From Antedon mediterranea (lineage: Eukaryota; Echinodermata; Crinoidea; Comatulida; Antedonidae), in assembly GCF_964355755.1 (NCBI RefSeq), contig NC_092677.1, forward strand, positions 5,833,001 to 5,897,000: a stretch of 64,000 bases of DNA. The letters are read 5' to 3'. Below the pieces are notes generated by a model. It was given only the letters and a program-made list of their open reading frames with translations, did not search any database and was not told the DNA's origin. A program made the position numbers and the translations under genes. Within the stretch, counting starts at the first letter, position 1; every line of letters begins with the position of its first letter. Positions 1-23,820 of this stretch are shown piece by piece.

Positions 1-80
1 GTGATGGCACTACTATGGCAACTATTGAAACAGAAACTATTTCAGTAAATTGTTTAGTGTATGATGAAATTCCAAACTGA
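1..80 (+). CDS. 3' end of Ig-type receptor gene A (last cytoplasmic exon, partial)
   Basis: In frame from base 3, this encodes 25 residues ending CLVYDEIPN and a TGA at 78-80. It matches the end of the last exon of gene C (23621-23820), including the shared TTMATIETE stretch, so it is the end of a third paralogue whose body lies left of the window. It lacks nine bases relative to gene C just upstream of TTMATIETE. The tail contains LVYDEI, which fits the ITIM consensus [SIVL]xYxx[IVL]. The rest of this gene cannot be seen. Confidence 0.75.
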   Translation, partial: DGTTMATIETETISVNCLVYDEIPN

Positions 81-640
81 TTTATTTAAAACTAGTTATA
101 CGCATGCTCGGTCCTTTTCGATTCTATTAGCCTAAATACATTACATTTGCAAAAATACGTATAAATTCTACTCAGCGTACGCCAAAAGTAACAAGGCCAA
201 CAGCCATAAGTCGCGTGATAGTGATACCGGACCGACAGACAGACCGACAGACCGACCGACCGACATAATAAACTATAGAGTCGCCGCGCGTCCACGCGAC
301 TAAAAATGCTAGCGGGAACCATAACCATTATATAACCAGGACCTACTAAACAACGTCGATGTCGCCGTACGTTTGGCTATGTAGGCCTACAACTGTTCGA
401 GATTAAGTTCTTTATGGGTACAGCATTCATAGATATAGAACCTCACTTTATAGTCTATCTCGTAAATATACCGTAAAATCTAATAATAAACTTTATTTAT
501 CATGATAGTCGAGATCCATGATTATGAAGTAAATCCTTCAGATAACGTTAGCATACAATATGAAATACTCAGTAGTTCTGAACAGCCGGTTCAAGCACTC
601 ATACGAGACAAGCCTAGCTAGGATATAATAAGAACAAGTC
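81..640 (+). other. 3' flank of gene A, paralogous to the 3' flank of gene C
   Basis: There is no coding sequence. The stretch aligns by eye with 23821-24235 downstream of gene C; shared landmarks include CATGATAGTCGAGATCCAT and GAACAGCCGGTT. The main difference is a small mobile element at 191-303 that is absent from the gene C side. The similarity stops near 615-650, where sequence like the last intron of gene B takes over. Confidence 0.6.
191..303. mobile_element. Short member of the GACAGACC-repeat foldback family (copy 1)
   Basis: It starts AACAAGGCCAACAGCCA, carries AAGTCGCGTG near the left and CACGCGACT at the right as inverted ends, and has a GACAGACC/GACC microsatellite core followed by AACTATAGAGTCGC. 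The homologous position downstream of gene C lacks it, so it inserted after the duplication. Other copies are at 11437-11544, 15613-16384 and 59810-60609. Confidence 0.65.
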
Positions 641-649
641 TTAAAGGGC

Positions 650-2215
650 TACTGAAAGACACAAGCGAACTATGCTGTTTTCTAACTAATAGTGATATAT
701 TATATTAAAAATAAAAGTAAACTTTTAATAATGCAAAAATTAACATTCTTAGACCGAATAATTTGTTTGTCTTATTTCGGAGAAAAGTTTTTTTTTATCT
801 AAGTAGGAAGGTGTCGGCCAAAACATTAGTGTCGCAAACAGTACGGCAGTTAAAACAAAATCATTTGCATTGTAATTTAAATGATCACTAACTCAGAGTA
901 GATTAGTAAACAATGGTGTACTTATTAACGGTAATGATACACTTTTACTTTCACTCCATATTGCATTATTGCTATTTTTCTTACAGAAAAGACGAATAAA
1001 AGAAATCCATATTCTTCTTTCTTATTCTGTCTTATTCTTTCTTATTTCTTCATTTCCATTCATCATACATATTCATAAACATACATAAAAAAGAAACAAA
1101 GAGAAAAAAAGAATGGAAAGGGGGAATCTCGAAAGCATAGATTTATAGAAGAAGAAGCTAACTTGCTTTTTACTTTAAATTAATACAGACTATAAAATAT
1201 AAACAATTTAAAAAAAGCTTTTTTTCCTTAAGCAATATCGTTTAAATAATGATTATAATTATACTCCAGGAATAATTGATTGTTTTTTTTAAATCATGCA
1301 ATTATGAAAAATGTAATAAAAAAGAAAACATATACATGTGACTAACTGTTACGTTGCTCCGGTTTCTACTGTAAAGCTCAGTCTACTTATTAAACTTTAT
1401 GTGACAAGAAAATGTGATGTGCCCATATATGGACATTATGATGTCATTTCACTACAATATTTGGGCATATCACTACTATATTATTTAGGAACTACATTTT
1501 AATCAAACTAGTTTGATAGTGTAGACAGAGCTTAAAACAAGCTAACGTGTATTAGAATGTTCGTCCCAACACATGCGTTTTGTATGGTGTCCCAGTGTGT
1601 GTATTCTGCAGAGTTTTGCTATGCATGTAAAACGGGTATTTGTTCTCACTTTAATGTCATACAAAGTACAATTTATGTTACTGGAGGGCAGCGCAAAAAG
1701 CCAAGACTGGTATATAAGGTATATAAAAATTACCGGAACATCAAAATAATTTGATTACCCCTTCCGGACCAGCAGAGACAAGAAAGACCGGGAAATCTGA
1801 AACTTAATTTGATGCCTCTCGGTATCCCAACATGCAACGGTACGACCGACCACCGCCCTCCGCGACACAACATTATCTTTTATTGTGCCTATGAAAAATG
1901 TTGTTATCTTCATATAAAAAGTGTATCTATAATAACATTAGGCCATTATGTGCTTAGAGAACCGTTGCTTTTTCAAGTTTAGTCTAGATTTCAATTGGTT
2001 GTGTATAATAATATGTACATAATTATAAATATTATAAAGATTATAAAGATGTTGATAGTTACTAATTATTAATATCATTTATCTAATAAGTGTCAATCTT
2101 TAAAACATTGCAATATTTGTATTATTACTTATATTTGGTTGATTGATATGGGAGTTTTAAACATTTCCAGTTCCGGTTATTTTTGTTTAGGCCTACCAAA
2201 TACGACATTAAAAAA
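650..2215 (+). pseudogene. Remnant of the 3' end of a gene-B-type receptor
   Basis: This block aligns by eye with 15385-17945: the end of gene B's last intron, its tail exon and its 3' flank. The tail-exon acceptor is preserved (TTCTTACAG before base 987), and the first codons (KRRIKEIH) match gene B. From about 1010 the coding sequence is replaced by TTCTT-rich low-complexity DNA, so the ITIM end is gone. No Ig exons precede it. The two-gene unit (gene-C type then gene-B type) therefore seems to have lost almost all of a gene-B-type member here. Confidence 0.6.
1373..1534. mobile_element. Foldback element, GTCTACACTATCAAAC family (copy 1)
   Basis: The inverted ends are AAGCTCAGTCTAC...AAACTTT and AAACTAGTTTGATAGTGTAGACAGAGCTT. 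The interior has the family signature GTGATGTGCCCATATATGGACAT and ATCACTAC. It sits at the same place as the copy at 16954-17113 in the paralogous block, so it predates that duplication. Confidence 0.6.
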
Positions 2216-4914: not shown

Positions 4915-5059
4915 AGTTTCTAAACCAGGAATAACGGTATTTGTTCAATGTGTATAATTAATGGTTCAGTTATTTCGGAAATTGAAAATAAAAGCAATGT
5001 GTAATGGTAAAGTGATTCACAATCAAAAACTCAATTATACAACGAAGCAGTAGATATCG
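4915..5059 (+). promoter_or_regulatory. Probable 5' untranslated exon and promoter region of gene B
   Basis: The stretch is conserved with 19550-19797 upstream of gene C, including a donor in the same place (CG|GTAAGTGGTGT at 5060 and 19798). The next acceptor, TTTATAG at 5327, is also conserved and lies two bases before the ATG. This supports a non-coding first exon spliced to the signal-peptide exon. The transcription start is not visible. Confidence 0.45.
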
Positions 5060-5675
5060 GTAAGTGGTGTATTTTATATATATTTAACAAAGGCACTGTG
5101 CCTTTTTACTTTTATCAAACATGTAGATCCTTATAAAGAACATACTGTAGCATAACCAATCTTGTTTGGATATTCGAAAATGCAATGGTTAAAAGAAAAT
5201 GGACATTATCGATGTGACAATGACTATTACGACGGCGACTTTTATCGACGGTTCACCAAGTTGGTAACATCAGAAGTCGCAAAAATGTTAACATTAATAA
5301 CAAGTGAACCATAACTCCTATTTATAGATATGGCAACATATTACCTGTTCTTGATATTTCTTTGTCAACCGACGATAGGTAAGATTAATTGAGAAAAGTT
5401 TATTATTATGTTTGAATCAGTTATTATTATTAGTCAAGGGAAAAATGGCAAATAGCTTCCTACTTTCCAGGAGTTTTATGTTAGTTAAGTTATCAGAGAG
5501 TCTATGTTGTTTTTGAAAACTCTGTAACATGACCACAGTCCTGATTTTGCTTAGAGTTATCGTTTTTAAGATCAAATTGATATGCTTTATTTGTAGTCTC
5601 AGGTGTAACACAATTGTCGATAATCGAAGGCGAAACTACACAAACCAACAGTGGTGTTGGTAGTCTATGAGTGCC

Positions 5676-5845
5676 GCTTACCTGGATAAACCAACATAAG
5701 CCTCTCTCTCCGACGAGAGGTAAACATTACGAAAAGAAGAACATTAATAACATTAATTTTTCCCCACCCCCGTCGGATAATGGATCAGTCCGCCACCAGT
5801 ACGCCCTCAAGTGAGACACACCCACTTATCATCGTCATCATTTCT
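5676..5845. repeat. DIRS left inverted terminal repeat (element 3' side)
   Basis: This is the reverse complement of 10818-10985 with few differences, from GCTTACCTGGATAAACC to ATCGTCATCATTTCT. The outer 40 bases (5635-5675) are not shared with the right end; their complement is instead found in the internal region at 5881-5937. Confidence 0.85.
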
Positions 5846-5880
5846 CAAGACCACCTGCCTGAGGGGACGGTAGGGAGGGC

Positions 5881-5978
5881 GTTTATCCAGGTAAGCGGCA
5901 CTCATAGACTACCAACACCACTGTTGGTTTGTGTAGTCTATATCGTGCCTAGCTTACCTGGATAAACCAACATAAGCC
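5881..5978. repeat. DIRS internal complementary region
   Basis: The first part (5881-5937) is the reverse complement of the element's left extremity (5635-5691). The second part (5936-5978) is the reverse complement of the right extremity (10960-11001). The two meet at TAGTCTATATC, which shows how the ends would be joined in a circular intermediate, with an AC/GT overlap. In known DIRS elements this region templates completion of the ends. Confidence 0.85.
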
Positions 5979-6041
5979 AGTGTAGCACCGGACTAGAGTC
6001 TAGTCGGAGGCGGGAGGTAAGGTAAACATTGTCATACATAC

Positions 6042-7070
6042 CTAGTGTCTGGGCTTCAAGATTGAAGCCGCCACCGTAGACTGGTTTGCGGAGGTATCCG
6101 ACAGGTAGTGGGATGTGAAAGTGGACTGTGATCGCCACCATGCCGCTTGCAGGATGTCTGGAAGGGGCACCCCAGCAAACAGCGCCCATGAAGCGGCTAT
6201 GCCACGCACTTGGTGCATATGTGCCGGAGGAGGCGTATTTGTGGAGTCGTAACCAGCCCGGATGGCTGCCACGACCCAGTTTGCCAGCGTCGACCGAGCA
6301 GCCGGTCGGAAGGGTGCAACTGTCGATACGAACAGATGTGACGCTGAGACCCGAATGGACTCTGTGCGTTTGATGTAAAACTTTAGTGCCCGCACCGGGC
6401 ACCAAAGTCTGTCTTCCTCAACCCCTGAACATGCAGCAATGGTGGGAATAAACACAGTCGGCGGCGAGAAGTTCAATGTCTGAGATTTTGCAAGGAAATA
6501 TTTTCTAAAAACCAACCGCGCGCCACCCCGTTCAAACCTGATGTGCCCTGGCTCCAGAGAAAGAGCATGCAGTTCACCTCTGCGCTTGCACGAGGCTAGT
6601 GCAATCAAAAAGGCAGTTTTGAGAGTCAGGTTGTAAAGTGATGCCCTACTCAGGGGCTCGAAGGGTGGACGCATAAGAGCGGCTAGGACGACATTGACGT
6701 CCCAACGTGGAATCAGGGCCTTAGTAGGAGGCCGTTCTCGAAACATCCCGCGAAGCAAACTGGAAATTGCAGGGGATGAAGAGATGGTCGAGCCGTCCTT
6801 AAAATTCGGAATTACTGCACCCAAGGCAGACCGATAGCCGGATACGGTGCGAACCTGCAGACCTGACTCAAACAGGTAATGTAGGAAAGCGCAGACCTGG
6901 CCCAAAGTCACTTTCATAGGGTCGGTCTTCTGGCGCTTGCACCATTTGAAAAAGTGTTTTAATCGGCTATTGTAGACAGCAAGAGTGGATTCCCGTCGGG
7001 ATTTCGCCGCGAGGGCGGCCGGGCCATCTGGAATGCCTGAGTCTCTGAAGCGATTCCTGACAATGGCCAT
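6042..7070 (-). CDS. DIRS tyrosine recombinase (YR)
   Basis: A 342-aa frame from an ATG at 7070 to a stop at 6042. It inserts the circular DNA copy of the element by site-specific recombination and replaces the integrase used by LTR elements. An N-terminal SAM-like core-binding part (about residues 25-110, ESTLAVYNSRLKHF) is followed by the catalytic part. Visible active-site residues are R163/R164 in CKRRGEL, H286-x-x-R289 in HQVRG, W311/W312 and the nucleophile Y322 in SHYLSD. The frame stays open upstream to 8909, but that part is the shadow of the RT frame, so I chose the methionine at 7070. This gives a 112-nt overlap with the end of the RT frame. The true start could differ. No inactivating change is seen. 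Confidence 0.85.
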   Translation of the reverse strand: MAIVRNRFRDSGIPDGPAALAAKSRRESTLAVYNSRLKHFFKWCKRQKTDPMKVTLGQVCAFLHYLFESGLQVRTVSGYRSALGAVIPNFKDGSTISSSPAISSLLRGMFRERPPTKALIPRWDVNVVLAALMRPPFEPLSRASLYNLTLKTAFLIALASCKRRGELHALSLEPGHIRFERGGARLVFRKYFLAKSQTLNFSPPTVFIPTIAACSGVEEDRLWCPVRALKFYIKRTESIRVSASHLFVSTVAPFRPAARSTLANWVVAAIRAGYDSTNTPPPAHMHQVRGIAASWALFAGVPLPDILQAAWWRSQSTFTSHYLSDTSANQSTVAASILKPRH

Positions 7071-8977
7071 ACAGTCAGGTCGAGGGATATGAGGTTCGGT
7101 AGAGCAAACCGAGCTCGGCCCTGCGTCAGCAAGTCGTTCCGAATCGGAAGACGTAACGGCTGATCGTACAGAAGGCCTAGTAGCAGTGGAAACCACGGCT
7201 GCCTGGGCCAATACGGCGCTATTAGTAGGACTCGGCATTGATGGCGCTGAATGTGCGTCAGGACCAGTGGCAGTATTGAAAACGGTGGAAAGGCATATGC
7301 CCAAAGGTTGTCCCATGGTATGGACAGGGCATCCACCGCCCACGCATGTGCATCCCGATATCGACTGCAGAACGTCGGGAGCTGCGTGTTGCCTGACGTC
7401 GCAAACAGATCTACATGGGGCCGCCCAAAGTGGTTGAAGATCTGGGTGGCGATTATTGGAAGAAGACGCCATTCCGTAGGACGTAGAAGTGGACGGGACA
7501 GTGCGACCGCCACTATGTTCAGACGACCCGCAATGTGGGCCGCTGACAGTTGGATGTTGTGTCTTATACACCACATTAGCAACGTCCACGTGTGGCAACA
7601 TAGCGTGGGGGACCGTGTACCCCCTTGCCTGTTTATGTATGCCACGACGGTTGTGTTGTCGGAATTGACGAGAACATGGCGATTTGCCAGATGGGGAAGA
7701 AGAGCCTCCAATGAGCGCTCGACTGCCCAAAGTTCGAGCAGGTTGATGTGGGCGCGCGTCTCCTCGGGCGACCAGAGGCCGGAGACGCGAATGTCCGGAG
7801 ACGGAATGTGACCGCCCCAGCCTACTTTGGATGCGTCCGTTTCCACACGGACATCCGGGATTGACCTTTGTATAGGTGTGCCCACAAGTAACCTGTCTTC
7901 CACGAGCCACCATTCGAGATGCGAGATAATGAACGCATTCGTTGGAACCACTTTGTGTAGAGAGTCTGATCTTGGGCGGTATGCTGCCAGAAGGTGCAGA
8001 TGTAGAGGCCGCATCCTTAACCGGCAGAACGGAACGAGGGCGACGAAGCTGGCCAGTGACCCCAAGGTGCGTAGCCAGTCGTATGCCGTCGGAGCCTGAG
8101 CATTGATAAGATGTAGCACTGCAGTTCTTGCCTTGGCCACACGCTCGATGGATGGGCACGCACGGCCCGTAACCAAATTTATTTGGGCTCCGAGATACAG
8201 AGGGTTCTGAGAAGGGAGAAGACATGACTTCTCCTCGTTTATTATGAACCCTGCTTGTTCCGTCACGAGGCGGACAAAAGATAAGCTGCTCAGCAGCTGG
8301 TCCCTGGACTGGGCCACGATCAACCAATCGTCTAAGTACATGAACACTCTGATGCCGTGTTGATGAAAGAACGCCGCCAGGGTTCTCACTAGACGAGTAA
8401 ACACTCGTGGGGCCGTTGAGAGGCCGAACGGCAGAGCTACGAATTGGTATACCTGATCGTGAATGCGGAAGCGCAGCCAACTCTGGTGTTCTTGCGCAAT
8501 AGGCACGTGAAAGTACGCGTCTTTCAAGTCTATTGTCGCTGCCCAGTCCCCTCGTCTTAGCCCCAACAGGATAGATGAGACAGTCTCCATCCTGAACCTG
8601 CGGGGCCGAATGTACCGCTTGTTCAGACTTTTGAGGTTTAGGATGGGTCGCCAATCGCCCGATTTTTTCTGGGCGAGGAAAACGGTGGATTCGTGTCCCG
8701 GGATCGTAAGTTGTTCTTTTTGAACATGCACCACAGCTCCTTTCTGGAGCAGTGCTTCGAGGCCCGTCATGAGCGCATGACTCTTTTCCGGCTCTGACGG
8801 AATCCTCGTGTGCCGGGCACCTCCGCTCACCGGAGGGCTCGAGAATTCGATACAATACCCGTGTGTCACGGTGGAGAGAACCCATCTGTCTGTGGTCAGG
8901 GTCTCCCAAACCCGTGAAAACCGTTTCAAGCGACCCCCCACCTGCCCGCCCTCGCTTGGAGGGACGGGCGCCCCCAA
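6959..8977 (-). CDS. DIRS reverse transcriptase / RNase H / methyltransferase-like polyprotein
   Basis: A 672-aa frame. Reverse transcriptase motifs are LKDAYFH (151-157), PFGLSTAP (183-190) and the catalytic YLDD (214-217). RNase H follows, with D381 (ETDAS), E415 (LLELWAV) and D440 (VNSDN). The fourth acidic position, normally AD in N..AD.LSR, reads AV here (V491). The C-terminal 150 residues (HVDLFATSGNTQ, YAFPP, LLIAPYWP) resemble the region after RNase H in DIRS elements, often called the DAM-like methyltransferase domain. The frame starts four bases after the Gag stop, which suggests reinitiation or a leaky junction. Its end overlaps the recombinase frame by 112 nt. Confidence 0.9.
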   Translation of the reverse strand: MGAPVPPSEGGQVGGRLKRFSRVWETLTTDRWVLSTVTHGYCIEFSSPPVSGGARHTRIPSEPEKSHALMTGLEALLQKGAVVHVQKEQLTIPGHESTVFLAQKKSGDWRPILNLKSLNKRYIRPRRFRMETVSSILLGLRRGDWAATIDLKDAYFHVPIAQEHQSWLRFRIHDQVYQFVALPFGLSTAPRVFTRLVRTLAAFFHQHGIRVFMYLDDWLIVAQSRDQLLSSLSFVRLVTEQAGFIINEEKSCLLPSQNPLYLGAQINLVTGRACPSIERVAKARTAVLHLINAQAPTAYDWLRTLGSLASFVALVPFCRLRMRPLHLHLLAAYRPRSDSLHKVVPTNAFIISHLEWWLVEDRLLVGTPIQRSIPDVRVETDASKVGWGGHIPSPDIRVSGLWSPEETRAHINLLELWAVERSLEALLPHLANRHVLVNSDNTTVVAYINRQGGTRSPTLCCHTWTLLMWCIRHNIQLSAAHIAGRLNIVAVALSRPLLRPTEWRLLPIIATQIFNHFGRPHVDLFATSGNTQLPTFCSRYRDAHAWAVDALSIPWDNLWAYAFPPFSILPLVLTHIQRHQCRVLLIAPYWPRQPWFPLLLGLLYDQPLRLPIRNDLLTQGRARFALPNLISLDLTVWPLSGIASETQAFQMARPPSRRNPDGNPLLLSTIAD

Positions 8978-8981
8978 GCCG

Positions 8982-10511
8982 TCACCGGCGCTTCACATTA
9001 TAATACCGGCGACCACTCCTGTTGGTGGCGCCTCTGCCACCCCTATTTCGCATTCCGCGAGGGGGGTGTGAAGCCTGTCTTGATGTAGAAGCCTGACTTT
9101 GCATAGGCTGAGCCGGTGGCGGCGGGGGAGGCTGCATCTGCTGAGGAGCAGCAGGGACAGGCGGCGGTCGTGCGGCTGTCCTTGAGCGTGAATTGCTAGC
9201 TCGGCGCTTTTGCGGGAAGCGCGCTCTTGTCTCCCGACGAGCTTCCCTCTCACGAGCCCATTTATCCTCCTTTTGTGAGAAGGAGCCAAAGAACAAGTCC
9301 TGCGCCCCGAAGGAGTCAGACGTAGTAAACCTACGGAAATCGGTCGGTGCGATGTCAGTTGCACCCAAGACGTTAACGCGACGGGCCGCGGCCGCAGATA
9401 ATGCGATCGTTGCCTGTTGATCAACAACCAGGCCCATGATCTGCTGTAGTAGAGCTATCACGTCCGAATCGCCCTGGGGCGGATGTTCTGGATCAGCCAG
9501 AAAAGATAGCAAGTACCCGGCCATAGAGGCGGCTCTAAGCGTCTCGCGTGCGGCCCTGTCGACGGACATAAGGACGTCCTCTGTCCGGGATTCCGAAGGC
9601 TTCAAAAAATTAGTCCTGGACGGGTCCAGGTTCTGGTCCTCACGGACCCGTTCCTTCGCTGCCTCCGGGACGCTCGGCGCCGCGATGTACAGTTCGAATT
9701 GTTTCTGCGGCACCGGAAAAGCCGATGACAGGCTATAAGGCATAGGCCTACGAACCTTGGACTCCTTAGCGATCAGCTCCACACGTTCCACAAGTTCTGG
9801 ATCGAGAGGCGTAACCGGGCACGAAGATACCTTCTTAAAGGGCGTGCGTACGCCAAAAGTGGAATACCGCTTAGACGAAGGAGTATGCTTAGGCTCTCGA
9901 TACGTGAAATCGACGCCGAGAAAGGACAGCACCGCGGGGACCGTCCGCATAACTAGCGCCTGCAGACCTTCCTCCCCTGGCCCGGCCTGCTCTCGTAAGC
10001 TATCTCTATCATCGTCAGAGAGCGAGGCCATCGTCCTGTCACTATCGTAGACCCTTTGCCGGACGGACGAACCATCGAAAAACGAGGTCTGCTGTGGGCC
10101 AACATCAATGTATGGAATCTGGGGAGGAGGTCTACTCTGAGAGGGTACCTCAGGCTCATCCCTCGGCAGAGCTCTCACAGCTGCAACAATGGCTTGCAGT
10201 AACCCCGGAGAAATCTCATTCACCCCCGGAACCGCAGAGGCCGCAGCCGGTGCAGGCATATCTGGAAGGCTAACTTCCGGCGCGACGACAGGAGGGCCTG
10301 CCGTATCAACGGTACCCACCTCCGGAGGTGGTACCGCTTCCGTGCGCTCTTTAGGCTTAGGGAGCGATTTGAACTTGGACGGTGTCCAGCGGACACAAAC
10401 ATCGCACGGCGACAACTCGGTACACGTGCGGCAATTTATACACTCCAAGTGGCGGTCCCACTTCACGGTAGAGCGGGGACCCCTACATTTAATACAGTCC
10501 TGCTTAGGCAT
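8982..10511 (-). CDS. DIRS Gag-like protein
   Basis: A 509-aa frame from an ATG at 10511. The N-terminus carries a cysteine-rich cluster (C6, C9, H21, C24, C27, C30, C36, C39) that looks like a zinc-binding ribbon. A long Pro/Ala/Glu-rich middle follows. The C-terminus is strongly basic and rich in Arg, Gly and Pro (RGMRNRGGRG, YYNVKRR), as expected for RNA binding. As the first frame of a DIRS element it probably packages element RNA. No catalytic motif is visible. The assignment rests on position and composition more than on direct similarity. Confidence 0.75.
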   Translation of the reverse strand: MPKQDCIKCRGPRSTVKWDRHLECINCRTCTELSPCDVCVRWTPSKFKSLPKPKERTEAVPPPEVGTVDTAGPPVVAPEVSLPDMPAPAAASAVPGVNEISPGLLQAIVAAVRALPRDEPEVPSQSRPPPQIPYIDVGPQQTSFFDGSSVRQRVYDSDRTMASLSDDDRDSLREQAGPGEEGLQALVMRTVPAVLSFLGVDFTYREPKHTPSSKRYSTFGVRTPFKKVSSCPVTPLDPELVERVELIAKESKVRRPMPYSLSSAFPVPQKQFELYIAAPSVPEAAKERVREDQNLDPSRTNFLKPSESRTEDVLMSVDRAARETLRAASMAGYLLSFLADPEHPPQGDSDVIALLQQIMGLVVDQQATIALSAAAARRVNVLGATDIAPTDFRRFTTSDSFGAQDLFFGSFSQKEDKWAREREARRETRARFPQKRRASNSRSRTAARPPPVPAAPQQMQPPPPPPAQPMQSQASTSRQASHPPRGMRNRGGRGATNRSGRRYYNVKRR

Positions 10512-10817
10512 GGTGATCTAACAGACCTACTTTTCCCCACTAGCCTAACGAACAACAAAAGATCTTCCAGTATTTCTATCCAGGTGAAACACACTGGATA
10601 ACGGCTTACAACGCTAAATTTTAACTCCTGGCAACTAGCCAAGGGTAACGATTCTAAACGTATCCACCACAAGATAACGATCTACTACACTTAGCTTCGT
10701 TTTCTTGCTCTATTCTTCTCTTCCTGTCTACAGTATAAAGGTCTTTATCGCAAATTCCTCAGGAATTCCAGGAATGTGTTCAGAAAAAGACGTACGTACA
10801 CAACGACGTTACGAAAA

Positions 10818-10985
10818 GAAATGATGACGATGATAAGTGGGTGTGTCTCACTTGAGGGCGTACTGGTGGCGGACTGATCCATTATCCGACGGGGGTGGGG
10901 AAAAATTAATGTTATAATGTTCTTCTTTTCGTAATGTTTACCTCTCGTCGGAGAGAGAGGCTTATGTTGGTTTATCCAGGTAAGC
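10818..10985. repeat. DIRS right inverted terminal repeat (element 5' side)
   Basis: This is the reverse complement of 5676-5845. The Gag frame begins 307 bases inside it. The outer bases 10986-11001 (TAGGCACGATATAGAC) are unique to this end and are mirrored in the internal complementary region. Confidence 0.85.
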
Positions 10986-11001
10986 TAGGCACGATATAGA
11001 C

Positions 11002-11255
11002 AATCTCAGTTAACGTTTGCATGTCCGTTGAGAGAGAAGATGCGGTAAATTGGTTTGAAGATAGAGGAATAAATCCAAGCAAACTGATCGTTAATTCTGC
11101 CAATCGTCAATCGGGAATTTTCTCAATGAATGGAACTTCAGGCAATTTGGTCATAAAACAAGTAAACAGAATGGACGCTGGTCTCTACACATGTCAGGTT
11201 GTTGAAAACGGAGGCGAAAGGGATTGTACTGAAACGTATAATTTAAATGTATATT
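11002..11255 (+). pseudogene. Gene B first V exon, 3' part after the DIRS insertion
   Basis: The frame continues the V domain begun at 5597-5634: cysteine in VNVCMS, tryptophan in VNWFED, and the F-strand signature DAGLYTCQVV. It ends at YNLNVY before the donor GTGAGT at 11256. It is close to gene C at 20601-20894 with scattered substitutions. A methionine at 11021 could start an N-terminally truncated product, but that would have no signal peptide. Confidence 0.8.
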
Positions 11256-11436
11256 GTGAGTTGTTACTTTGTATAATGTAATATTGATGATACCTAATTG
11301 TAATCCTAATTGATATCCAATTGTAGTATGTATAATATAGCTATTTTTTATTTGTGTTTTAGAGTGACTTACTAAACCAAAATCTTTAGCAAAAGTAAAC
11401 ACATTTTGTAAACCTAAATTTATTTACATATTTAAA

Positions 11437-12537: not shown

Positions 12538-12837
12538 ATATGGAGTCTCCAAATATCAAAGAATATACTACGAATATTGGAAACAATGTTGTTGGTTATA
12601 CACTGTGTTGTCAATGGTCAAAGATGTTTCCTAAAATGGAACCAAATGTCACGTGGTTTCAAAATGGCAATACATTAGAAGCTAGTACGACGTACGTTTT
12701 AGAAACACAAGGAAATGTGCATACAATGTGTATTAGTTACATATCAGAGGTTGGAGACTATTCTTGTCGCATTGATGTTGAAACAAGTATGGGTAATATG
12801 AGCAAGACAAGCAATTGCAAAGAACTGCAGTCACCTT
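12538..12837 (+). pseudogene. Gene B Ig exon 2 (C-like domain 1)
   Basis: 300 nt, phase 1 to 1, acceptor ATTACAG and donor GTAAGT. It encodes one C-like domain with a double Cys before Trp (LCCQW), the conserved PNVTWFQNG and VGDYSCRI. Its close relatives are the C exon of gene C and exons 13065-13382 and 14767-15067. Confidence 0.75.
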
Positions 12838-13064: not shown

Positions 13065-13382
13065 ATGTTGATTCACCAATTGTCATCGTATCTATCGATA
13101 ACACAAAACGCTACTATGCATTTTACTGTGTATGGGGTTTATTGTATCCAGAATTTGAACCAGACATAACCTGGATTTTTAATGGAAATATACTGAACAC
13201 ATCAATAACTAAATACAGTGTAACAGACGAAGGGAAACGTTGGAATAAACTTATTATTCTTGATACAATAAGTAAGGACGACTTAGGAAACTATTCTTGT
13301 TGTATTACTGTACAAATGGATGACGGCACTAATATAACAAAGAAAAGCAATGTAGAAGAACTTTGGCAAGCATCTATTAGTG
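13065..13382 (+). pseudogene. Gene B Ig exon 3 (C-like domain 2)
   Basis: 318 nt, phase 1 to 1, donor GTAAGT at 13383. The domain has FYCVW, PDITWIFNGN and LGNYSCCI, and several NxS/T sites. It is longer than its sister exons because of extra residues before the donor (LWQASIS). Confidence 0.7.
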
Positions 13383-13416: not shown

Positions 13417-13537
13417 CTGTTAAGCCTGTTTCGAATTGACAGGATTCAGCGATTTTATTGGAGAAGGGGGTAAACATGCTGTCAATTCAATGCAACTCAG
13501 CGTAACTCAACGATCGACAGGAAAACAGGCTTAACGC
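13417..13537. mobile_element. Small foldback element in a gene B intron
   Basis: It has inverted ends GCTGTTAAGCCTGTTT and AAACAGGCTTAACGC about 90 bases apart, with inner CGAATTGACAGG and TGTCAATTC also complementary. No coding content. Confidence 0.45.
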
Positions 13538-13948: not shown

Positions 13949-14248
13949 TTACACGGTTATCAGTAGTTGAAGAGGAGCGAATAGCAATACCAGCTGGAGT
14001 TGGTGTGCCCATAAACGAAATTGTGACGATAAAGTGGTACAAGTATAAATCGCCAAACACAAGCTATATAATTGTTAGTTTAACAAATCGAACCAATGGC
14101 CGCTTCTCAATTGATGGAACTGGTGAAAACTACGGTGATTTGATCATACAACATGCTGATAGAGAAGATGCGGGTTATTACACAATTCAGATTTTTGAAA
14201 AAGAGGATTCTAGACAGCAGACCATTACGTATTATTTGGATGTACATT
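13949..14248 (+). pseudogene. Gene B Ig exon 4 (V-like domain without the canonical cysteines)
   Basis: 300 nt, phase 1 to 1. The sequence follows the V pattern of exon 1 (KWYKYKS, GRFSIDGTG, DREDAGYYTIQIF). The B-strand Cys position reads as non-Cys in VPINEIV, and the F-strand Cys is Ile (YYTI). Both halves of the usual disulfide are thus missing. The donor GTTAGT at 14249 is weaker than the others. Confidence 0.7.
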
Positions 14249-14766
14249 GTTAGTTTTTTTTTCTTTAATAAATATTATAATCATAGTATACAGTAGCGTA
14301 TAACCAAATTTAGGCACTAATTATATTTCCAACTTATATTTAAATATTATGATAGGTTATAATATATGTAGTCTTTAACCTCCACTCATTTTAAACTAGT
14401 ATCACATTATTTTTGCTAAATTGTAGACTTGACCATGAATGCCTTTTATCATTTTGTATTATATTATTTCAGTCGGGAAAATGTATTATTATGTTCTTAA
14501 TGCTATGTTCTTATTCACCTGGTGTGGCTTACTGCAGAACTGGATTCTCAAATTCACGAAGTGTTGTTACATACAGTCTTTCATAATTGAAGACAAAATA
14601 GATAATTTCCTACAATTAAACTTTGAAAAATATTGATCAGCGGTGGTATAATTGTATACACAAATTATTTGACTAAATTTGAATAAATACAATCACGGAA
14701 GTTATAGAAATGTTATGCTAATTTATAGTCTGCTCACTATTTTTTATAACTTTATTTCTTCCAAAG

Positions 14767-15067
14767 ATCTACCTCAACCAACTCTCACATCATTCACTGA
14801 AAAGGCTGGCCACAGAAACACGTTGTACTGCAGGTGGTGTCAAATTTACCCCGAGATGGAACCGTACGTAGCATGGTTACATAATGGACATATATTAAAC
14901 ACCTCAACGACTAAGTACAGTGTGATAAAGAACGAACAGAAGAACAGACAAACACTCATTATTCTGGAAATGACTGAACAAGATGTTGGAGAATATGCTT
15001 GTCGTATTACTAAAAACAAAATTAGAAATGCCTAATATGAGCAAGACAAGCAATATTGAAATCCTAG
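14767..15067 (+). pseudogene. Gene B Ig exon 5 (C-like domain 3), frame broken
   Basis: C-like domain with YCRWCQIYPEMEPYVAW and VGEYACRIT. The exon is 301 nt from acceptor (CCAAAG) to donor (G|GTACG). Its sister exons are multiples of three, so one extra base is present. Reading straight through gives a stop at about 15033. Shifting frame by one near the A-run at 15011-15022 recovers the MSKTSN end seen in the paralogues. A homopolymer sequencing error is possible. Confidence 0.75.
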
Positions 15068-15245
15068 GTACGAACTGCACAATACATTGTTTATTTTATC
15101 GTCGTCAATTGTTTCACTACAAAATATTTCTAAATTTAGGTATCAATTATAGTTGATTGAAACATATTTAATTCGGGATTAAGTTAGTTTTTTTTAAATA
15201 TAAATTATAAAAATATTGTTATAACAAACATGCTTTCTTTTTAAG

Positions 15246-15361
15246 GTGCTTTGGATTCAACAGTAGCAGCATGCTTATCAAGTACAATTCTAATTGTCGC
15301 TGTTGTAATCACATTTATCTTTGGATCTGTCCCCACTTGCGTAATAGCAATTTGTCTTCAT
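15246..15361 (+). pseudogene. Gene B transmembrane exon
   Basis: The exon encodes a short stalk (ALDSTVAACL) followed by a strongly hydrophobic span (STILIVAVVITFIFG and VIAICLH) and ends in phase 0 at a GTAAGT donor. It is unrelated to the transmembrane exon of gene C. Confidence 0.75.
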
Positions 15362-15612
15362 GTAAGTATTTTTTTAATTACACGGGGCTAAAAGACACAA
15401 GCGAAATAGGTTGTATAGTATTAAAAGAAAAATAAACTCTTATTGTACAAAGAGAATGATTTTCGGACCGAATAATTGGTTTGTTTTGGATTTTGTTTTT
15501 ATCTATGCTGGAAGGTTTCGTCAACATTATCATTAGTACCATTATAAATAACCAATTACATAGAAATTTAAATTATCATTTATAATCTGAGAGTAAATTA
15601 GTAGGTCTAAAT

Positions 15613-16384
15613 AAAAACAAGGCCAACAGCCATTAAGTCGCGTGCTACAATGCATAGTGATACCGGACCGACAGACAAACAGACCGACAGACAGACAGAC
15701 CGACAGACAGACGGACCGACCGACATAGTGAACTATACTGACCGAAATTACTGAACATGTTTAAAAATGTTGAAATGTTTAAAAACATTTATATTTTTTT
15801 AATTTACACGTGCGTAGCCTGTCACTTTTGACGTGCTCGTATAACGTAATTTCGAGTTGAAAAGTAAGTCAAGAAAACAGAAATTGGGCAAAAAGAGTGC
15901 GCAATAACATTTAACGCGCAGTGCAAAAAATCTGCGCACTCATGGCAATTTTGTAAACGCTTAAAATTGCCTGAAACGTACTCTTATTTCATCGAAAATA
16001 AATTTGGAAAATTTTAAGCGCGCGTACGCATGCGTTACATGCGCTACGCACGTAATTGTATTGCCATATGATGATTTATGCCCTGAAATTTATGAGTACC
16101 AAATTTTATTTAATTGTGATTCATGGTTGTTAAGATATGATTACAAACGTGATTTCGTTAAATCGTGCGTAGACCGCGTAATTTTTTATTGCGCACCGTG
16201 AAAACATAACCACATCGATTCCTGCCCATAAGGAATATTCTGTGAAAAATTGACTTAGCTAGATTAAACTGATATCAAGATAAGGTCATAAAGCGATAAA
16301 ACGCATAGTGATACCGGACCGACAGACAGACAGACAGACCAACCGATCGACATAGTGAACTATAGAGTCGCTTCCACGCGACTA
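15613..16384. mobile_element. Long composite GACAGACC-repeat element (copy 3), gene B last intron
   Basis: It begins AAAAACAAGGCCAACAGCC...AAGTCGCGTG and ends TCGCTTCCACGCGACTAAT. The signature ATAGTGATACCGGACCGACAGAC occurs twice, near each end, around about 560 bp of unique GCGC-containing DNA. It looks like two short elements flanking a shared insert. A near copy is at 59810-60609. The paralogous remnant at about 900-910 is an empty site. Confidence 0.7.
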
Positions 16385-16463
16385 ATAATGGTGTACTTAT
16401 CAACGGTAAAATGATACACTTTTACTTTCACTCTATAATGAATCATTTATATTTTTCTTACAG

Positions 16464-16664
16464 AAAAGACGAGTAAAAGAAATCCATACTAATCATAAAA
16501 GTCACCAATATCAAGACCTGCAATTTGTTTCCAGTCCCGCTATTTACAATACAACGATATATCCTATAACAGACGACAACGTTGCTACCAATCAATACGC
16601 TGACAAAATGTCGTATACGCCGTGTCCTAAGCCTAACGTTGATTATCAGAATGTGACGAACTAG
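16464..16664 (+). pseudogene. Gene B cytoplasmic tail exon with ITIM-like motif
   Basis: Acceptor TTCTTACAG, then KRRVKEIH, ending in a TAG at 16662-16664: 66 residues. Basic residues follow the membrane span, as expected for the cytoplasmic side. Tyrosines occur in HQYQDL, AIYNTT, NQYADK, MSYTP and VDYQNV. VDYQNV fits the ITIM consensus and also contains YxN (a Grb2-type SH2 site). The exon itself is intact; the gene upstream is not. Confidence 0.75.
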
Positions 16665-16953
16665 TCTAACTTGCTTATTACTTTTTATTAGAGAATCGGG
16701 GGTGGGGGAGGGGTGTTTTTTATATAATGTATAATTGTATATATAACTAGAAAATCAAATTCTTTAAATTAATACAGGCTATAATATACACACATTTAAC
16801 AAAAGCTTTTTTTCCTTAAGAAATATCGTTTAAGCATAATACATGCTCAAGGAATAATTGATTGTTTGTTTGAAATAATATAATTATGAAACATGTAATC
16901 AAGAAAACAAATATATAAATTTGATTAACTTTAGCCTTGCTCCAGTTGATACT

Positions 16954-17113
16954 GTAAAGCTTCATTATCAAACTTTATGTGACAGAAAATGTGATGTGCA
17001 TGCATGGATATTATAATGTCTTATCACTACGATATTTGGGCATGTCACTACCATATTTGGGCTCATCGCATACTTTTTTGACAAACTAGTTTGATAGTGT
17101 AGACAGGGCATAA
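16954..17113. mobile_element. Foldback element, GTCTACACTATCAAAC family (copy 2)
   Basis: It has ends AAAGCTTCATTATCAAAC and ACTAGTTTGATAGTGTAGACAGGGC, with an interior TATCACTACGATATTTGGGCATGTCACTACC. It is paralogous in position to the copy at 1373-1534. Confidence 0.55.
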
Positions 17114-17166
17114 AACAAACTAACGTGTATTAGAATGTTCGTCAAAACACATGCGTTTTGTATGGT

Positions 17167-17562
17167 GCCGGATGGCGTAATTTTTTTTTCCAGGACGAAC
17201 GTGGGCAGAAATCATGAATAATTCATGATTAATTATGACATAATAGGGAACATTATAGAGGGCGCTGTATAAGAATGCCGAGAGATTAAAAAATTAGTGT
17301 AAACAACGTTTGCCAACCGAAATGTTTGGTCTAGTGGTAAAGGCTTTAACATATTACGCTGAAGCACTCGGTTCGAGGTCTTTCATGAACTTGTTTTTTT
17401 TTAATAGTTGAGAGAGATTATTTAGAGGGTTAGGTTTAGTATATTTAGGAAGTAGATCAGCTATCTTTCAATTCTTTATAATAGAAAATAATTATTAAGG
17501 TAATGAATTATTCATGACTTCTGCCCACGTTCGACCTGGAAAAAAAAAACACGCTGCCGGCC
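17167..17562 (+). mobile_element. TIR-flanked element with a tRNA-like promoter (copy 1)
   Basis: About 60-bp inverted ends run from GCCGGATGGCGTAA through CCAGGACGAACGTGGGCAG, mirrored at 17505-17562. Inside, TGGTCTAGTGGTAAAGG and GGTTCGAGGTC look like the A and B boxes of a tRNA. After a T-run, a stretch of about 65 bp (17410-17475) matches the reverse complement of 27845-27905 in the second copy. The paralogous block near 1585 lacks it. Confidence 0.65.
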
Positions 17563-17954
17563 CCAATGTGTTCTCACTTTAATTGCATACGAAGTAGTAT
17601 ATCAATATTAAATCTTACATTCCTATTTTAAACTATAAACAGCATGACGACCATATTTTGTATGGCAACATTATGCCATTATGTGCTTAGAAAAGCGTTG
17701 GCTATACATTTTCAAGTTTAGTCTAGCTTTCATTTGTCTGTGTGTTAATAATGTATACATAATCATAAATATAAAGATGTCGGTGTTACTAATTAATATC
17801 ATTTACCTAATAAAAGCAAATATCACATTGAAAATTTGCAATATTTATAACCTTTTACCATTACGGTGCATTTTTATCATTACTTTTGATATGGGAGTTT
17901 TAAGAATTTCCAGTTACCAAGACTTACCAAGAGGGCGACATTAAAAACTGGTCT

Positions 17955-19420
17955 TTATAATATTTTATTTATTTTTTTTTTTATTTTATTCAGTTGTCAA
18001 CCAACAGCGATGGAACCGCCACTAACAGGTTGAATCTAAACATAATAAATACAAAATGTATTCAAATAAACAACACAAACGTAAACAAAGATAACAACAT
18101 TAAAGAGATTAAACAATTTTACCCTTAAATACATTTAAACTATCATATAAATCAATATCCAAACAAGTAACCTATTAAATGTGTTAGGTAACCGCTGAAA
18201 GATACCTCGTTTTGTGCATTCAACACGACCACAAGGAACGTGAAGCAAACACTTGCTGCGAGTACGAGTTGGTATATTCAACTTAAACAAAGCAACAAGA
18301 GGACAATCATAAACGGAATTGAATGAGTTGTATAAAAAAAAAACTCAAAAACAACTCTACGATTTTCAAGAGAAATAAGAGAAACATAAAAATTAGGACA
18401 AGTGCGAGCAAGGAATCTAATGAATTTGTTCTGAACATTATAAATACGCTGAGATTGAGTACAAGAAATTGAATTTAAAATGACTGAACAGTATTCCAGG
18501 TGGGGGCACACGACTGAACGGTACAATGATGTTAATGCTCCACCATTGCCCATGAATCTACAGTTCCTCCATAACAAACCCAGCATTCTATTTGCCTTAC
18601 ATACAACATAATTAACATGTAAACAAAAATTTAACTTACTATCAATTAAAACTCCTAAATCCCTTTGAGAATTAACACAATCTAATTCCTGATCATTCAA
18701 CTTATATTTGGTTATAATAGGCTTTGTTTTCAGAGTGATACACAAAGATTTACATTTGCTTATTTTTAAAGAAAGTTTCCATGTCTCAGCCCATCCCACA
18801 AGAGAATCCAGATCCTCTTGCAGCAGATGAGCGTCGTCAGGTGAAGAGATTACTTTAAACAACTTTTAAGGTCATCAGCAAACAGAAGTGATTGTGAAAA
18901 CTTAAAAACAGAAGGAAGGTCATTAATATACAAATTAAAAAGCAAGGGGCCAATAATTGACCCCTGCGGAACCCCATAAAGTACAGGAAGCCACTCAGAA
19001 CAGTTTCCACTGATGACTACCCTCTGCTTCCTGTCAGTCAAATAATCCGAAAACCATTTAAGAAGATTGCCTTTTAAACCAAACTTTGAAATCTTAAAAA
19101 CTACACAAACCAACAGTGGTGTTGGTAGTCTATGAGTGCCGCTTACCTGGATAAACCAACATAAGCCTCTCTCTCCGACGAGAGGTAAACATTACGAAAA
19201 GAAGAACATTAATAACATTAATTTTTCCCCACCCCCGTCGGATAATGGATCAGTCCGCCACCAGTACGCCCTCAAGTGAGACAAGTAAATCATGAGGGAC
19301 CGAGTCAAATGCTCTAGAAAAATCAGTGTAGACCACATCACATTGCTTCTTACTATTCAAAGCATTGTATGCTGTAGAAAGAAGCAAATCAATATTAATA
19401 ATATCAATGACGGCTATGTA
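17955..19420 (-). mobile_element. 5'-truncated LINE fragment (non-LTR reverse transcriptase)
   Basis: Minus-strand frames carry RT motifs: TDFSRAFDSVPHDLL (about 19320), GVPQGSIIGPLLFNLYINDLP (about 18950), FADD (about 18885) and RDLGVLIDSKLNF (about 18670). The 3' end is A-rich on the minus strand (the T-run near 17965-17985). The start of the RT is missing and there are frame breaks, including one near 18855, so it is dead. It is a CR1/Jockey-like RT by motif style only. A DIRS fragment interrupts it at 19102-19282. Confidence 0.8.
19102..19282. mobile_element. 181-bp DIRS remnant inside the LINE
   Basis: By eye it is identical to 5637-5817 plus its AC: the left extremity and most of the left terminal repeat of the DIRS element. 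An AC dinucleotide is present at both borders (19100-19101 and 19281-19282). Removing the insert and one AC joins the LINE frame perfectly across PHDLL and FKISKFGL. It is thus a precise recombinase-type insertion or a partial excision, not random debris. Confidence 0.85.
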
Positions 19421-19576
19421 CCGAAGATGAGAAGATTGAAAAATACACAACACAAAATGGAACCGATTTGTCTAATAGCACTAATGACGACAATGGCGAT
19501 GAGCAGAACTGTTTTTATGTTTCCCGAAAGAGGAAATATTAAGTTATTTTTAAACCATGAAGAACTGTTTTGTTCA

Positions 19577-19578
<2 letters not shown>

Positions 19579-19673
<95 letters not shown>
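19579..19673. repeat. (AT)n microsatellite
   Basis: About 95 bases of pure TA/AT repeats just upstream of gene C's conserved 5' exon. At the paralogous spot upstream of gene B (about 4955) there is no such expansion. Confidence 0.95.
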
Positions 19674-19675
<2 letters not shown>

Positions 19676-19797
19676 TGTTTCGGTTATTTCTTACGGTACA
19701 TAATTATGGAAACTGAAAATAAAAGTAATGCGTTATTTAATGTAAAAGTGATGTTCACAATCACAAACTCAATCATACGCTGAAACAGTAGATAGCG
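19674..19797 (+). promoter_or_regulatory. Probable 5' untranslated exon of gene C
   Basis: Conserved with 4960-5059 upstream of gene B, ending at the same donor (GCG|GTAAGTGGTGT). The following 70 bases (AACAAAGGCACTGTGCC) are also conserved. The transcription start is not visible. Confidence 0.45.
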
Positions 19798-20122
19798 GTA
19801 AGTGGTGTATTTTTTTATATATTTAACAAAGGCACTGTGCCCTTTTACTTTTATCAAACATGTAAATCCTTATAAAGAACATTCTGTGTTACTGTTACTT
19901 AATAGCAAAACAATCGTTTATGGATATTATTGGACTCTTTAGTGGAGGACATTGCCGATAAGCTATGTTACATTCAGAAATTATCGTGAGTTTCTTTATC
20001 ATGATGTTCTATATCAACCTGCAGTCGTTAACGTAATGACTTGATATTATCGTTAACCAAGTTGATAACATCAGCAGTCGCAACCCTTACTAACAAGTGA
20101 ATCCTAACTCCTATTTATAGAT

Positions 20123-23100
20123 ATGGCAACATATTACCTGTTTCTGCTATTTCTTTGTCAGCAGACAATAGGTAAGTTTAATTTAAACAAGTTTGTTATT
20201 ATGGTTTATTTTTGCCGAAGGTTGGAAACCCTACTCAATCCAAAAGACCAATACTTGTTTATATTCTCGACAAGACAAAACATACTATGGGTATGGATTT
20301 TTGCCACATAGCGCTAGGTAGAGCTGCAGTTAGGCCAATGTGCACACTACACTATTATTGCTATTTCAATAATACAATCACCAATATGTAAGAGAATATT
20401 ACTCTACATGTTTTTATTTAAGAAAATTATTTTCCAAAATGCCCATAGGAAAATGGCAAAAGGCTTCCTACTTTCTAGGAGTTTTATGTGGTAAAGTTAT
20501 CAGAGAGTATATGCTGTTTTTGACAACTCTGTAACATGACCACAGTCCTGATTTTTGCTTAGTAGTTATCGTTTTTCAAACTGATATGCTTTATTTGTAG
20601 TCTCAGGTGTAACACAATTGTCGATAATTGAAGGCGAACCAATCTCAGTTAACGTTTGCATGTCCATTGAGAGAGAAGATGCGGTAAATTGGTTTAAAGA
20701 TAGAGAAATAAATACAAACAAACTGATCGTTAATTCTGCTAATCGTCAATCGGGAAATTTCTCAATGGATGGAACTTCAGGCAATTTGGTCATAAAACAA
20801 GTAAACAGAAAGGACGCTGGCCTCTACACATGTCAGGTTGTTGAAAAGGCCAAAGAAAGTCATTGTATTGAAACGTATGACTTAAATGTATATTGTGAGT
20901 TGTTACTTATGTATAATGTGATAATATCAAAGGTATCAAATTGTATGATTATAGCTATTTTTTCACCCGATTCCCAGTGCTGTATCTCTCCATATACTTT
21001 CCGAGGTATCATAGGAATATTTGGCAATACAGCATCTTATTCAGATCACATGCTGTGCCTGTATCAATGTAAAGATTACGGGTTAGGTTGCTACTAGATA
21101 CACGTGAAATACATCTGATGTTGTATTACCAATATTCCTATGATAATTCGGGAATAGATACAGTACTAAGAATCGGCCAATTATGTTTATTGTGTTTTAG
21201 GATGGCTTTCTATTAGAGTAGTTGATTATTACTCGTGAGCTAAATGAAGGCGCTTAACTACAATTATTAAACCCACATTTATTTACATACTAACACAAAT
21301 AAAGTACTATGGGTCTACCTTCTTTTTAAAAGCAAAATGCCAAAATTAACAGATGTATAGTGTTGTTTTGGTATTACCAAGACAACACTATAAATCTGTT
21401 AACTTTTTTATTTCTTTATGGTTTTCAAAACTATCGTCACCATGTGATGCTATGTAACTTCCATAAATTACTGCTAAGTAACTTCCATGAATTATTATTG
21501 TTGCGCTCTACTATTGAACGCCTAACGGTATTATAATGCTAAGACAAGGAACTACCACAGGCAATATATCTGTATAATGTACTTGTACTGAGGTTGGGTA
21601 AAATTTTACTTATAAATTTATAAAATACTTCTGACGCAAACATTTGTATTTAAAAAAAATATGTATGGCAAAAAGAAGCCACACCAAATCCACCCGGTTG
21701 AAGCTCAGGTGATAATAATTGTGTTTTCTTTTCCTATACTAGATATGGATTCTCCAATTCTAACATCTTACACTGAAAACTATATATTTTACTGCGAATG
21801 GGCTGAAATATATCCAGACATTAAACCAGATGTGCAGTGGATATATAATGGAGAAATACGGGACACTAAAACAACTAAATACAATGTGATCACAACAAAT
21901 AAAACAAGTATGCTGATGGTGCACCAAGTATCTGAAAACGACTTTGGAAACTATGCTTGTCGTATCACTGTTGAAACAAGGGCAGGAAATATGAGCAAGA
22001 CGAGCAAGGTTGGAGAAATTAAGCACACGGCTGCATGCAGTAAGTTATAAATACTCAATATGCCAAAAGTTTGTTTTTATATATTTATGCACATTTCCAA
22101 AGATATCTTTAATTTTAGTTTAAAAGTTTAGTTTAATTTAAAGGGGTAATTTTAGGCGGTGTGTGCCTTTTTAACCCCATTTTCTACAACGAATCCAAAC
22201 GTTTCAAGAATTCATTCACTATCCTTCTTAAAAGTAGCAATCTTGTTCACAAGAAAAAATAATATAATATATGCTCTACATAAACGAAGTCTTATTACAA
22301 GTCTTAGGGAGTGGAGTTATAAATTGTCATTGTCATTAGAAAAAATCCTGACACCTAGGACCCTTGGATTGGTAGCCAAGCATCATAACCTCCAAGCCAC
22401 CACAACTCCGGTTGTGAACAGCCACACTCATGTACTTCTGTTATGAAATATATATATATTTAAAGCATCTATAATAACAATATTATAACAAATTTATTTA
22501 TAGCATACTGTTGAATGCTTGTCATTTTATATTAACTTTCTACTGAACTATTTTTCTTGGCTCGAACGTCTTTCAAAAGTAAAACTATTATTTTAAAGAC
22601 CGCAGTTATTCACGGTATCTTCAAATAAAATATTCAATACCATTTGCCATAACACAAACAATTAGTATATGTGTGAACATAATTCTAATCATGTTTATGT
22701 TGCAATACGACAATAGGTTTCGATGAAAGCAGCAGAAGCGTCAGAAGAAGATCTCTAGACCTATGGTTAATTGTGATTGTGTGTGCAGCGATCTCTTTTG
22801 TTTGTATTATTGGCGTTTTATGGTCAGCTGTCAACAGAAGGAGTAAGTTTTTTTTCAAAATATTTATGTAAAAACGTAGCATTGTATTTTCTCTTATTTC
22901 CATTATACCCACAAAATTTAATTGAATTTGATATTAATGATAATTGGATTAATTTAACAAGAGAGTGGTCATTTATAGTATTCAAGGTATTATTATTGCA
23001 TGCGCATGTGCACTATCTATTTTACAATATTTGATGGCTAGTTTTTAGTATAGTTGCACAATTAAGGGCACTCTAATGTTCAATTCTGTATTGTTATTAA

Positions 23101-23820
23101 TATGGCCACAGCAATAAATATAGTAATTAAGAAATATGCATTACAATGTCATGTCTATAGGGGGCGACCTACATCCGGTTTTATACAATGCTAGTCAATA
23201 GACGATTGGCAACTAGCTATATTTAATTAATTCCTAAACTCGCGGCTCAATCGAAATTGACCCGCGACAATTTTTACCCGGAGTTTGATCTACGATACAT
23301 TCATTCTTATAGTATGGACAAATTGAGAGGGTTATGGGTAGGGTATTTATGTATGAGTACCGGCAGAGACATCATCGGGAGTAACATAGGCATACTCGAC
23401 TGAAAATACTGTAATACCAACTTCTTTTTCTTTTCTTGCATTATACTATTTATGTTCATTATCAGTTGTATATTTACAGTATTATGCTACTCTGTATTTT
23501 GCTTTATTATTTGTGGAAATAAATATTATTATTATTATTAATCTTTAATACATCACTGATAGAGAATTAATATTATTTCACCTAATTACGTTTTATTATT
23601 TATATTGTATTCTACATCAGATCAAACATCAGAATTTTCATCAAGTATTACAGGCCCGGAAAATGAAGACGATTTACCGGTACCTCTACACCCATACATT
23701 TCCCAACCTGTCATTATTCCGGATGTATGCGATGGTATGACCAGGTCTACTACTATGGCAACTATTGAAACAGACAATATGTCATTAAATTGGTCAGGGT
23801 ATGATGAAGTTCAAAGCTGA
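20123..23820 (+). CDS. Ig-superfamily receptor gene C (V-C, transmembrane, ITIM-like tail)
   Basis: The coding exons are 20123-20171, 20601-20894, 21743-22039, 22717-22842 and 23621-23820; they join in phase 1 throughout and give 321 aa. Residues 1-17 are a signal peptide (MATYYLFLLFLCQQTIG). The V-type domain spans 18-114, with Cys in VNVCMS, Trp in VNWFKD and DAGLYTCQVV. The C-like domain spans 115-213 (YCEWAEIYP, VQWIYNG, FGNYACRI). The membrane span is L229-V251, preceded by SVRRRS. The tail holds SGYDEV (314-319), an ITIM-like site. It is probably a cell-surface immune-type receptor; the ligand is unknown. All splice sites are GT-AG and no lesion is seen. The V and C exons are close copies of gene B's first V exon and C exons. 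Confidence 0.8.
20967..21177. mobile_element. Foldback element with about 60-bp inverted ends in gene C intron 2
   Basis: The left arm (CCGATTCCCAGTGCTGTATC...ATCATAGGAATATT...AATACAGCATC) is complementary to 21117-21177. Gene B's homologous intron (near 11345) runs straight through without it. No coding content. Confidence 0.65.
21345..21405. repeat. Short hairpin in gene C intron
   Basis: TTAACAGATGTATAGTGTTG and CAACACTATAAATCTGTTAA form a stem of about 20 bp around a TTTGGTATTACCAAG loop. The role is unknown. Confidence 0.5.

Follow-up and report, generated by a model that had tools for sequence, protein, structure and literature searches.

Clustered families of immunoglobulin (Ig) receptors whose tails carry an immunoreceptor tyrosine-based inhibitory motif (ITIM) or the corresponding activation motif (ITAM) are already known from invertebrates, namely the FcoR receptors of Botryllus schlosseri and the Alr receptors of Hydractinia. 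The parts of the published accounts on which we draw here describe FcoR as clustered Ig receptors of type I, at 53 loci, in whose tails ITIM, hemITAM or core YxxI/L/V motifs occur (PMC12065747), and Alr as a clustered family of 41 members with V-set and I-set domains (PMC11999971), for whose candidate genes ITIM and ITAM/hemITAM motifs are reported (PMC12065747). They also describe CgIgIT2 of the oyster, a single multi-Ig protein with five Ig domains and a tail tyrosine motif that is called an ITAM (PMC11999971). Here we compare with these systems a stretch of 64,000 nucleotides from the crinoid Antedon mediterranea, referred to below as the window, which is C8:5833001-5897000, C8 being contig 8 of a genome of 354 Mb that is assembled in 18 contigs. 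The region around the window is rich in V-set exons, and the window itself holds the tail exons of three genes, A, B and C, which a first-pass annotation had read as Ig receptors with an ITIM-like terminal tyrosine. By analogy, the locus most likely represents a clustered recognition-receptor family with phosphotyrosine signaling, similar to Alr in Hydractinia and FcoR in Botryllus. In our best explanation, which we hold as a whole to be rather probable, the window is part of a large and duplicating cluster of type I Ig receptors with a V-set/I-set ectodomain, one transmembrane (TM) segment and a short tail.

The three tails in the window carry LVYDEI (gene A, 54-71), VDYQNV (gene B, 16638-16655) and SGYDEV (gene C, 23794-23811), positions that agree with the first-pass annotation, and each motif is followed by two codons and the stop. 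At C8:5.80-5.857 Mb all six of the tail exons identified end in [SVL]xYxx[IV]xx-stop (A, LVYDEIPN; C, SGYDEVQS; B, VDYQNVTN; B2, VVYEDIPN; E, SIYENISE; F, LNYEVVNY) and conform to the ITIM consensus [SIVLT]xYxx[ILV]; three further V units in the same interval (5807891, 5810376 and 5817083) are without an assigned tail. The B2 tail was found through its homology to B, and both B2 and E were returned by homology searches that made no use of the motif. Chance, which had been allowed for at the outset, is a reasonable account of a permissive motif lying anywhere in a single tail, as it does in 10-19% of residue shuffles (P 0.10-0.19 per tail, five tails), but not of the exact register, since only 0.16-0.34% of them place [SIVL]xYxx[ILV] at exactly two residues before the stop (P 0.0016-0.0034 per tail, five tails). 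These per-tail values are not to be multiplied freely, because the tails form at most two groups of relatives. When the ends of open reading frames (ORFs) were scanned, a motif 0-7 residues from the stop gave 173 entries in the 167-kb cluster part as compared to 104 in the 97-kb control part, and the offset of two residues gave 30 as compared to 7; a motif near ORF ends says little by itself.

A second tyrosine arrangement becomes apparent among the relatives of the gene B tail. A search with one B-type tail returned 27 matches with E values of 10 or less. One of them lies on C3 and the other 26 on C8, between 4.71 and 5.82 Mb; a set of 26 tails was made from the 27 by omitting L051 and L052 (both nearly the same as L050) and the partial L054 and by adding tails B and F. 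An ITAM-like pair, Yxx[LIV]-x7-9-Yxx[LIV], is present in 14 of the 26 (shuffled expectation 0.6, maximum 4 in 2000 shuffles) and in 9 of 19 groups when the tails are grouped by similarity; the ITAM consensus Yxx[L/I]-x6-12-Yxx[L/I] is likewise found in 14, B2 and E included. In the alignment of B-type tails the first tyrosine is kept in 21/26, its +3 leucine in 21/26 and the second tyrosine in 22/26. In the tail of gene B the second half of the pair is gone (YNTT), and the tails of B2 (YQDLQFMPRPDQYQEL) and E (YQELKVSALPAIYKEL) combine the ITAM-like pair with the terminal site. Mammalian CEACAM1 and CEACAM3 provide ITIM and ITAM members within one family, and vertebrate FCRLs carry both motif types in one tail. 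The earlier reading of these genes as inhibitory receptors has its basis in the layout shared with vertebrate receptors, but a purely inhibitory sign is not supported, because homologous tails carry the ITAM-like pair and the terminal site allows other readings (see below).

Exon-like ORFs with YQxL and/or [DE][DEG]GY[VA], mostly followed by [KR]P, lie 3' of several B-type tail exons, and repeated ORFs of this sort with YQxL and DDEGY[VA]KP-like sites occur at C8:5732053 and downstream as well as at L036 and L040-L043. The repetition suggests modular tyrosine tails, and YxxP is a Crk-type site. Tentatively, B2 and E may each combine in one tail an ITAM close to the membrane and an ITIM at the C-terminus in fixed register, with tails elsewhere lengthened by duplicated YxxL/YxxP exons. 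The duplication and loss of exons would then have given an invertebrate recognition complex, whose V domains mostly lack the canonical disulfide, a modular phosphotyrosine code; we consider this possible, though doubtful.

The tails of A and C are paralogous (60% amino acid identity over 63 codons), as had been proposed. The companion claim that the gene B tail is unrelated to them fares less evenly: five of the six pairs between A/C and B/B2/E do not score above shuffles (P 0.11-0.86) and the intron between the TM and tail exons is in phase 1 in C and phase 0 in B, but A and B2 do align above shuffles (score 45, P 0.0005, 2000 shuffles). That two unrelated tails each gained the motif is not borne out. 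Shared descent, recombination of tail ends or convergence may lie behind the resemblance. Within the B type, B2 is 39% and E 21% identical to the B tail, and the ratio of nonsynonymous to synonymous divergence (dN/dS) of the B-B2 pair is 0.35 with dS near saturation.

Candidate partners for such tails are plausibly encoded in the same genome. Two SH2 exons and a phosphatase exon follow one another in order at C3:14097618-14104506 (+), and an SH2, a partial SH2 (E 1.1e-4) and a kinase exon do so at C6:545130-537616 (-); SH2 and kinase exons also adjoin at C6:3449612-3452931. If each row is one gene, as we infer, the SH2-SH2-phosphatase and SH2-SH2-kinase arrangements point to an SHP-type and a Syk/Shark-type protein, respectively. 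Together with the upstream paralogues, these arrangements support the initial view of a cluster of Ig receptors with an ITIM-like terminal tyrosine. The receptors would recognize other cells or microbes and pass the signal on by their tail tyrosines, once a Src-family kinase has phosphorylated these; the membrane-near ITAM-like pairs of the B-type tails would dock a tandem-SH2 kinase like Syk or Shark, the terminal [SVL]xYxx[IV]xx-stop would dock a phosphatase of the SHP type, and some of the receptors would accordingly be activating, others inhibitory and others dual. Phosphorylation and the sign of the signal are predictions made from the motifs.

Several observations weigh against this explanation. 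The presumed immune or allorecognition role is suggested by analogy with the described systems, and the gene models were built from splice signals, not transcripts. It was the motif that led to tail F, and E came up at first in a list already filtered for the motif; the shuffle tests, moreover, take no account of shared descent. The full ITAM-like pair is lacking in 12 of the 26 B-type tails, none of the three tails in the window (A, B and C) has a full ITAM, and the terminal motif is absent from 22 of the 26 B-type tail exons. The A-C tail pair (dN 0.21, dS 0.23, dN/dS ~0.9) gives no sign of constraint and the B2-E pair has a dN/dS of ~0.75, so selection on the tails is weakly supported at best. 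As regards the missing terminal motif, 21 of the 26 exons end, by a loosely matched pattern, in what resembles a donor site, with the following exons not traced to their end, so true absence of a terminal site is not demonstrated; our first reading of these exons as distant paralogues without the site was dropped in view of the same donor-like ends. A B-type-like exon downstream of L038, some 1.1 Mb away and found by motif scan, ends SHYSNIRNT, with the motif three residues from the stop. It is a matter of speculation that the terminal motif represents intron read-through.

Other roles for the tyrosines can be envisaged. All six terminal sites also fit the endocytic or sorting signal YxxPhi, YDEI, YDEV and YEDI resemble the acidic optimum generally given for Src SH2 domains, and the ITIM consensus is permissive at -2, so the site could serve in sorting, or as a dock for SH2 domains of the Src type, rather than as an ITIM; yet the -2 residue is S, V or L in 6/6 tails and a sorting signal would have no need of the ITAM-like pair of the B-type tails, which leads us to regard this alternative as unlikely. 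It is somewhat more natural, if still doubtful, to see in the family homophilic adhesion molecules of the CEACAM or Alr kind, with tyrosines that tune adhesion rather than immunity. Among the best 60 of 262 solved-structure matches of the V profile the two best are CEACAM1 chains, followed by Roundabout 2, CEA and contactins, which are adhesion or guidance molecules; adhesion is nonetheless compatible with immune use, and CEACAMs are generally held to do both. That the terminal motifs are neutrally drifting relics of ancestral exon ends, with no function kept, seems to us very unlikely: the A-C dN/dS given above agrees with it, as does the retention of the motif by gene B, which is broken (see below), whereas B2 and E have kept the tyrosine, the +3 [IV] and the register despite their low identity to B. 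Phosphotyrosine signaling by a clustered recognition family is the reading that we prefer.

Gene C, judged by its GT-AG splice signals, is complete and intact in sequence. Its predicted type I product of 321 amino acids is encoded on the plus strand by a signal-peptide exon (20123-20171), a V-set exon (20601-20894), an I-set exon (21743-22039), a TM exon (22717-22842) and a tail exon (23621-23820, stop at 23818-23820), all placed by splice-site models, and in the case of the V-set and I-set exons by Pfam matches as well. Only Ig families exceed their Pfam cut-offs in gene C, with C1-set below its own, and no sushi match was found in the gene C model at E 0.1 (introns and other members lay outside the scan). 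A structure prediction for the V exon, made with three window rows, had a mean pLDDT of 44, and we make no claim as to fold. The V-C extracellular part first suggested for these receptors holds as a two-domain arrangement for C, and for A with its V and I exons, although the second domain is an I-set and the ectodomain of B is most likely V-I-I-V-I. Ig-family matches over the Pfam cut-off were obtained for 6/6 exons scanned and for V_D, a piece of the gene that includes B. Among 10 aligned V domains the F-strand cysteine is absent in 6 and the B-strand cysteine is not seen in 7, both being present in 2 (C and D), with the limit that the rows start at the profile match and a B-strand cysteine further upstream could be missed; CEACAM N domains, too, are generally described as lacking the disulfide. 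An apparently invariant cysteine at V-exon ends was rejected as a residue, as it is a donor site read through.

The exons called gene B most likely form the 3' end of a larger gene, D/B, which would have five Ig domains and the order V-I-I-V-I-TM-tail. Its exons, all on the plus strand, are those for the signal peptide (MATYYLFLIFLCQPTI, 5330-5378), the first V domain in a 5' part (5597-5634) and a 3' part (11000-11255, the V_D piece), two I-set domains (12538-12837 and 13065-13382), a second V domain without either canonical cysteine (13949-14248), a last I-set domain with a broken frame (14767-15067), the TM segment (15246-15361) and the tail (16464-16664, with the ITAM remnant YQDL...YNTT). 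Within C8:5795001-5857000 a narrow pattern for signal peptides matches at three places, once each before A, D/B and C. This suggests that gene B belongs to one gene with D, but the pattern is a weak guide, missing the starts of other units (e.g., B2 and E). B2, the close upstream relative of gene B, has the exon order V-I-V-I-TM-tail. An intact gene B receptor, as first supposed, is not borne out: in this assembly the gene is most likely broken twice, by a 5.4-kb insert in its first V exon and by a frameshift in its last I exon, which has 2 bases fewer than its paralogue at C8:5823594 and reaches an in-frame stop (15033-15035) before the TM segment and tail. The insert (5635-10999, minus strand, its ends placed to within about a base) has inverted ends that are 98% identical over 177 bases and long ORFs with a reverse transcriptase over the Pfam cut-off and an RNase H and a tyrosine recombinase under theirs, features that fit a DIRS-type retrotransposon. 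An identical 186-base piece of one end of the insert lies at 19098-19283. A pseudogene, a haplotype and an assembly error would look alike here.

Gene A lies mostly upstream of the window, with V, I and TM exons at about C8:5829879-5831421 and a tail exon that starts at C8:5832863 and whose 3' part occupies 1-80 of the window (plus strand, stop at 78-80). Downstream of it, at 984-1010 on the plus strand, is a relic of a B-type tail exon consisting of the acceptor and the first codons (KRRIKEIH; tblastn 987-1010), and 909-1011 is 90% identical to 16384-16488. The sequence that follows gene A combines, in a mosaic, a C-like 3' untranslated region with a B-like intron and tail relic. A signal-peptide exon at C8:5826468 and, close 3' of it, tail exon F (C8:5826800-5827150, with internal repeats) are both located 5' of the gene A V exon.

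On a wider scale, 94 of 150 listed V-set matches are on C8 (a hand count; 150 of 790 candidates were scored), and 86 of these 94 fall at 0.38-1.66 or 4.78-6.15 Mb. The V-set matches at C8:5122566-5139127 stand in a row at ~1-kb spacing with equal or near-equal scores and look like a recent tandem array. Also among the matches listed are long open frames on C7, C3 and other contigs, and two frames of more than 600 amino acids, L002 (C11) and L006 (C2), can each be read as an Ig-TM receptor whose long tail is rich in tyrosine, all in a single exon. Patchy duplications link 688-2172 with 15405-17915 and 4977-11302 with 19708-20945 of the window, which further contains introns, glycosyl-hydrolase-30 exons (presumably GBA-like), ETS and Pointed-domain exons and, on the minus strand, protein kinase exons that we take to be CHK1-like, contents that mark the DNA as animal.

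A literature search by title found no description of this cluster, which says little. Vertebrate inhibitory receptors resemble those described here in layout, and the likeness to mammalian CEACAM1 and CEACAM3 lies at the level of the Ig fold, with no orthology claimed; the closer known cases are invertebrate, in Hydractinia Alr and Botryllus FcoR. With oyster CgIgIT2 the locus shares a multi-Ig receptor with a tail tyrosine in an invertebrate, though CgIgIT2 is described as a single protein and the part of that account drawn on here mentions no cluster. Assays could take gene C and the two paralogues B2 and E as concrete candidates. If the tails work as proposed, this genome holds a large set of activating and inhibitory Ig receptors comparable to Alr and FcoR, which would help to test whether a balance of ITAM and ITIM in self/non-self recognition is ancient. 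With FcoR, as far as it is described in the source, the locus has in common an invertebrate cluster of type I Ig receptors with V-type and further Ig domains and tyrosine-motif tails (PMC12065747); FcoR differs in its sushi domain and two C2-type Ig domains (PMC12065747), and its layout of V, sushi, two C2-type Ig and TM was not found among our exons, where gene C is V-I, with Ig matches only, and D/B is V-I-I-V-I. With Alr, which we liken by published description rather than by sequence, the locus shares clustering, V-set and I-set domains in V-I order and motifs of the ITIM/ITAM type, which for Alr are reported on candidate genes.

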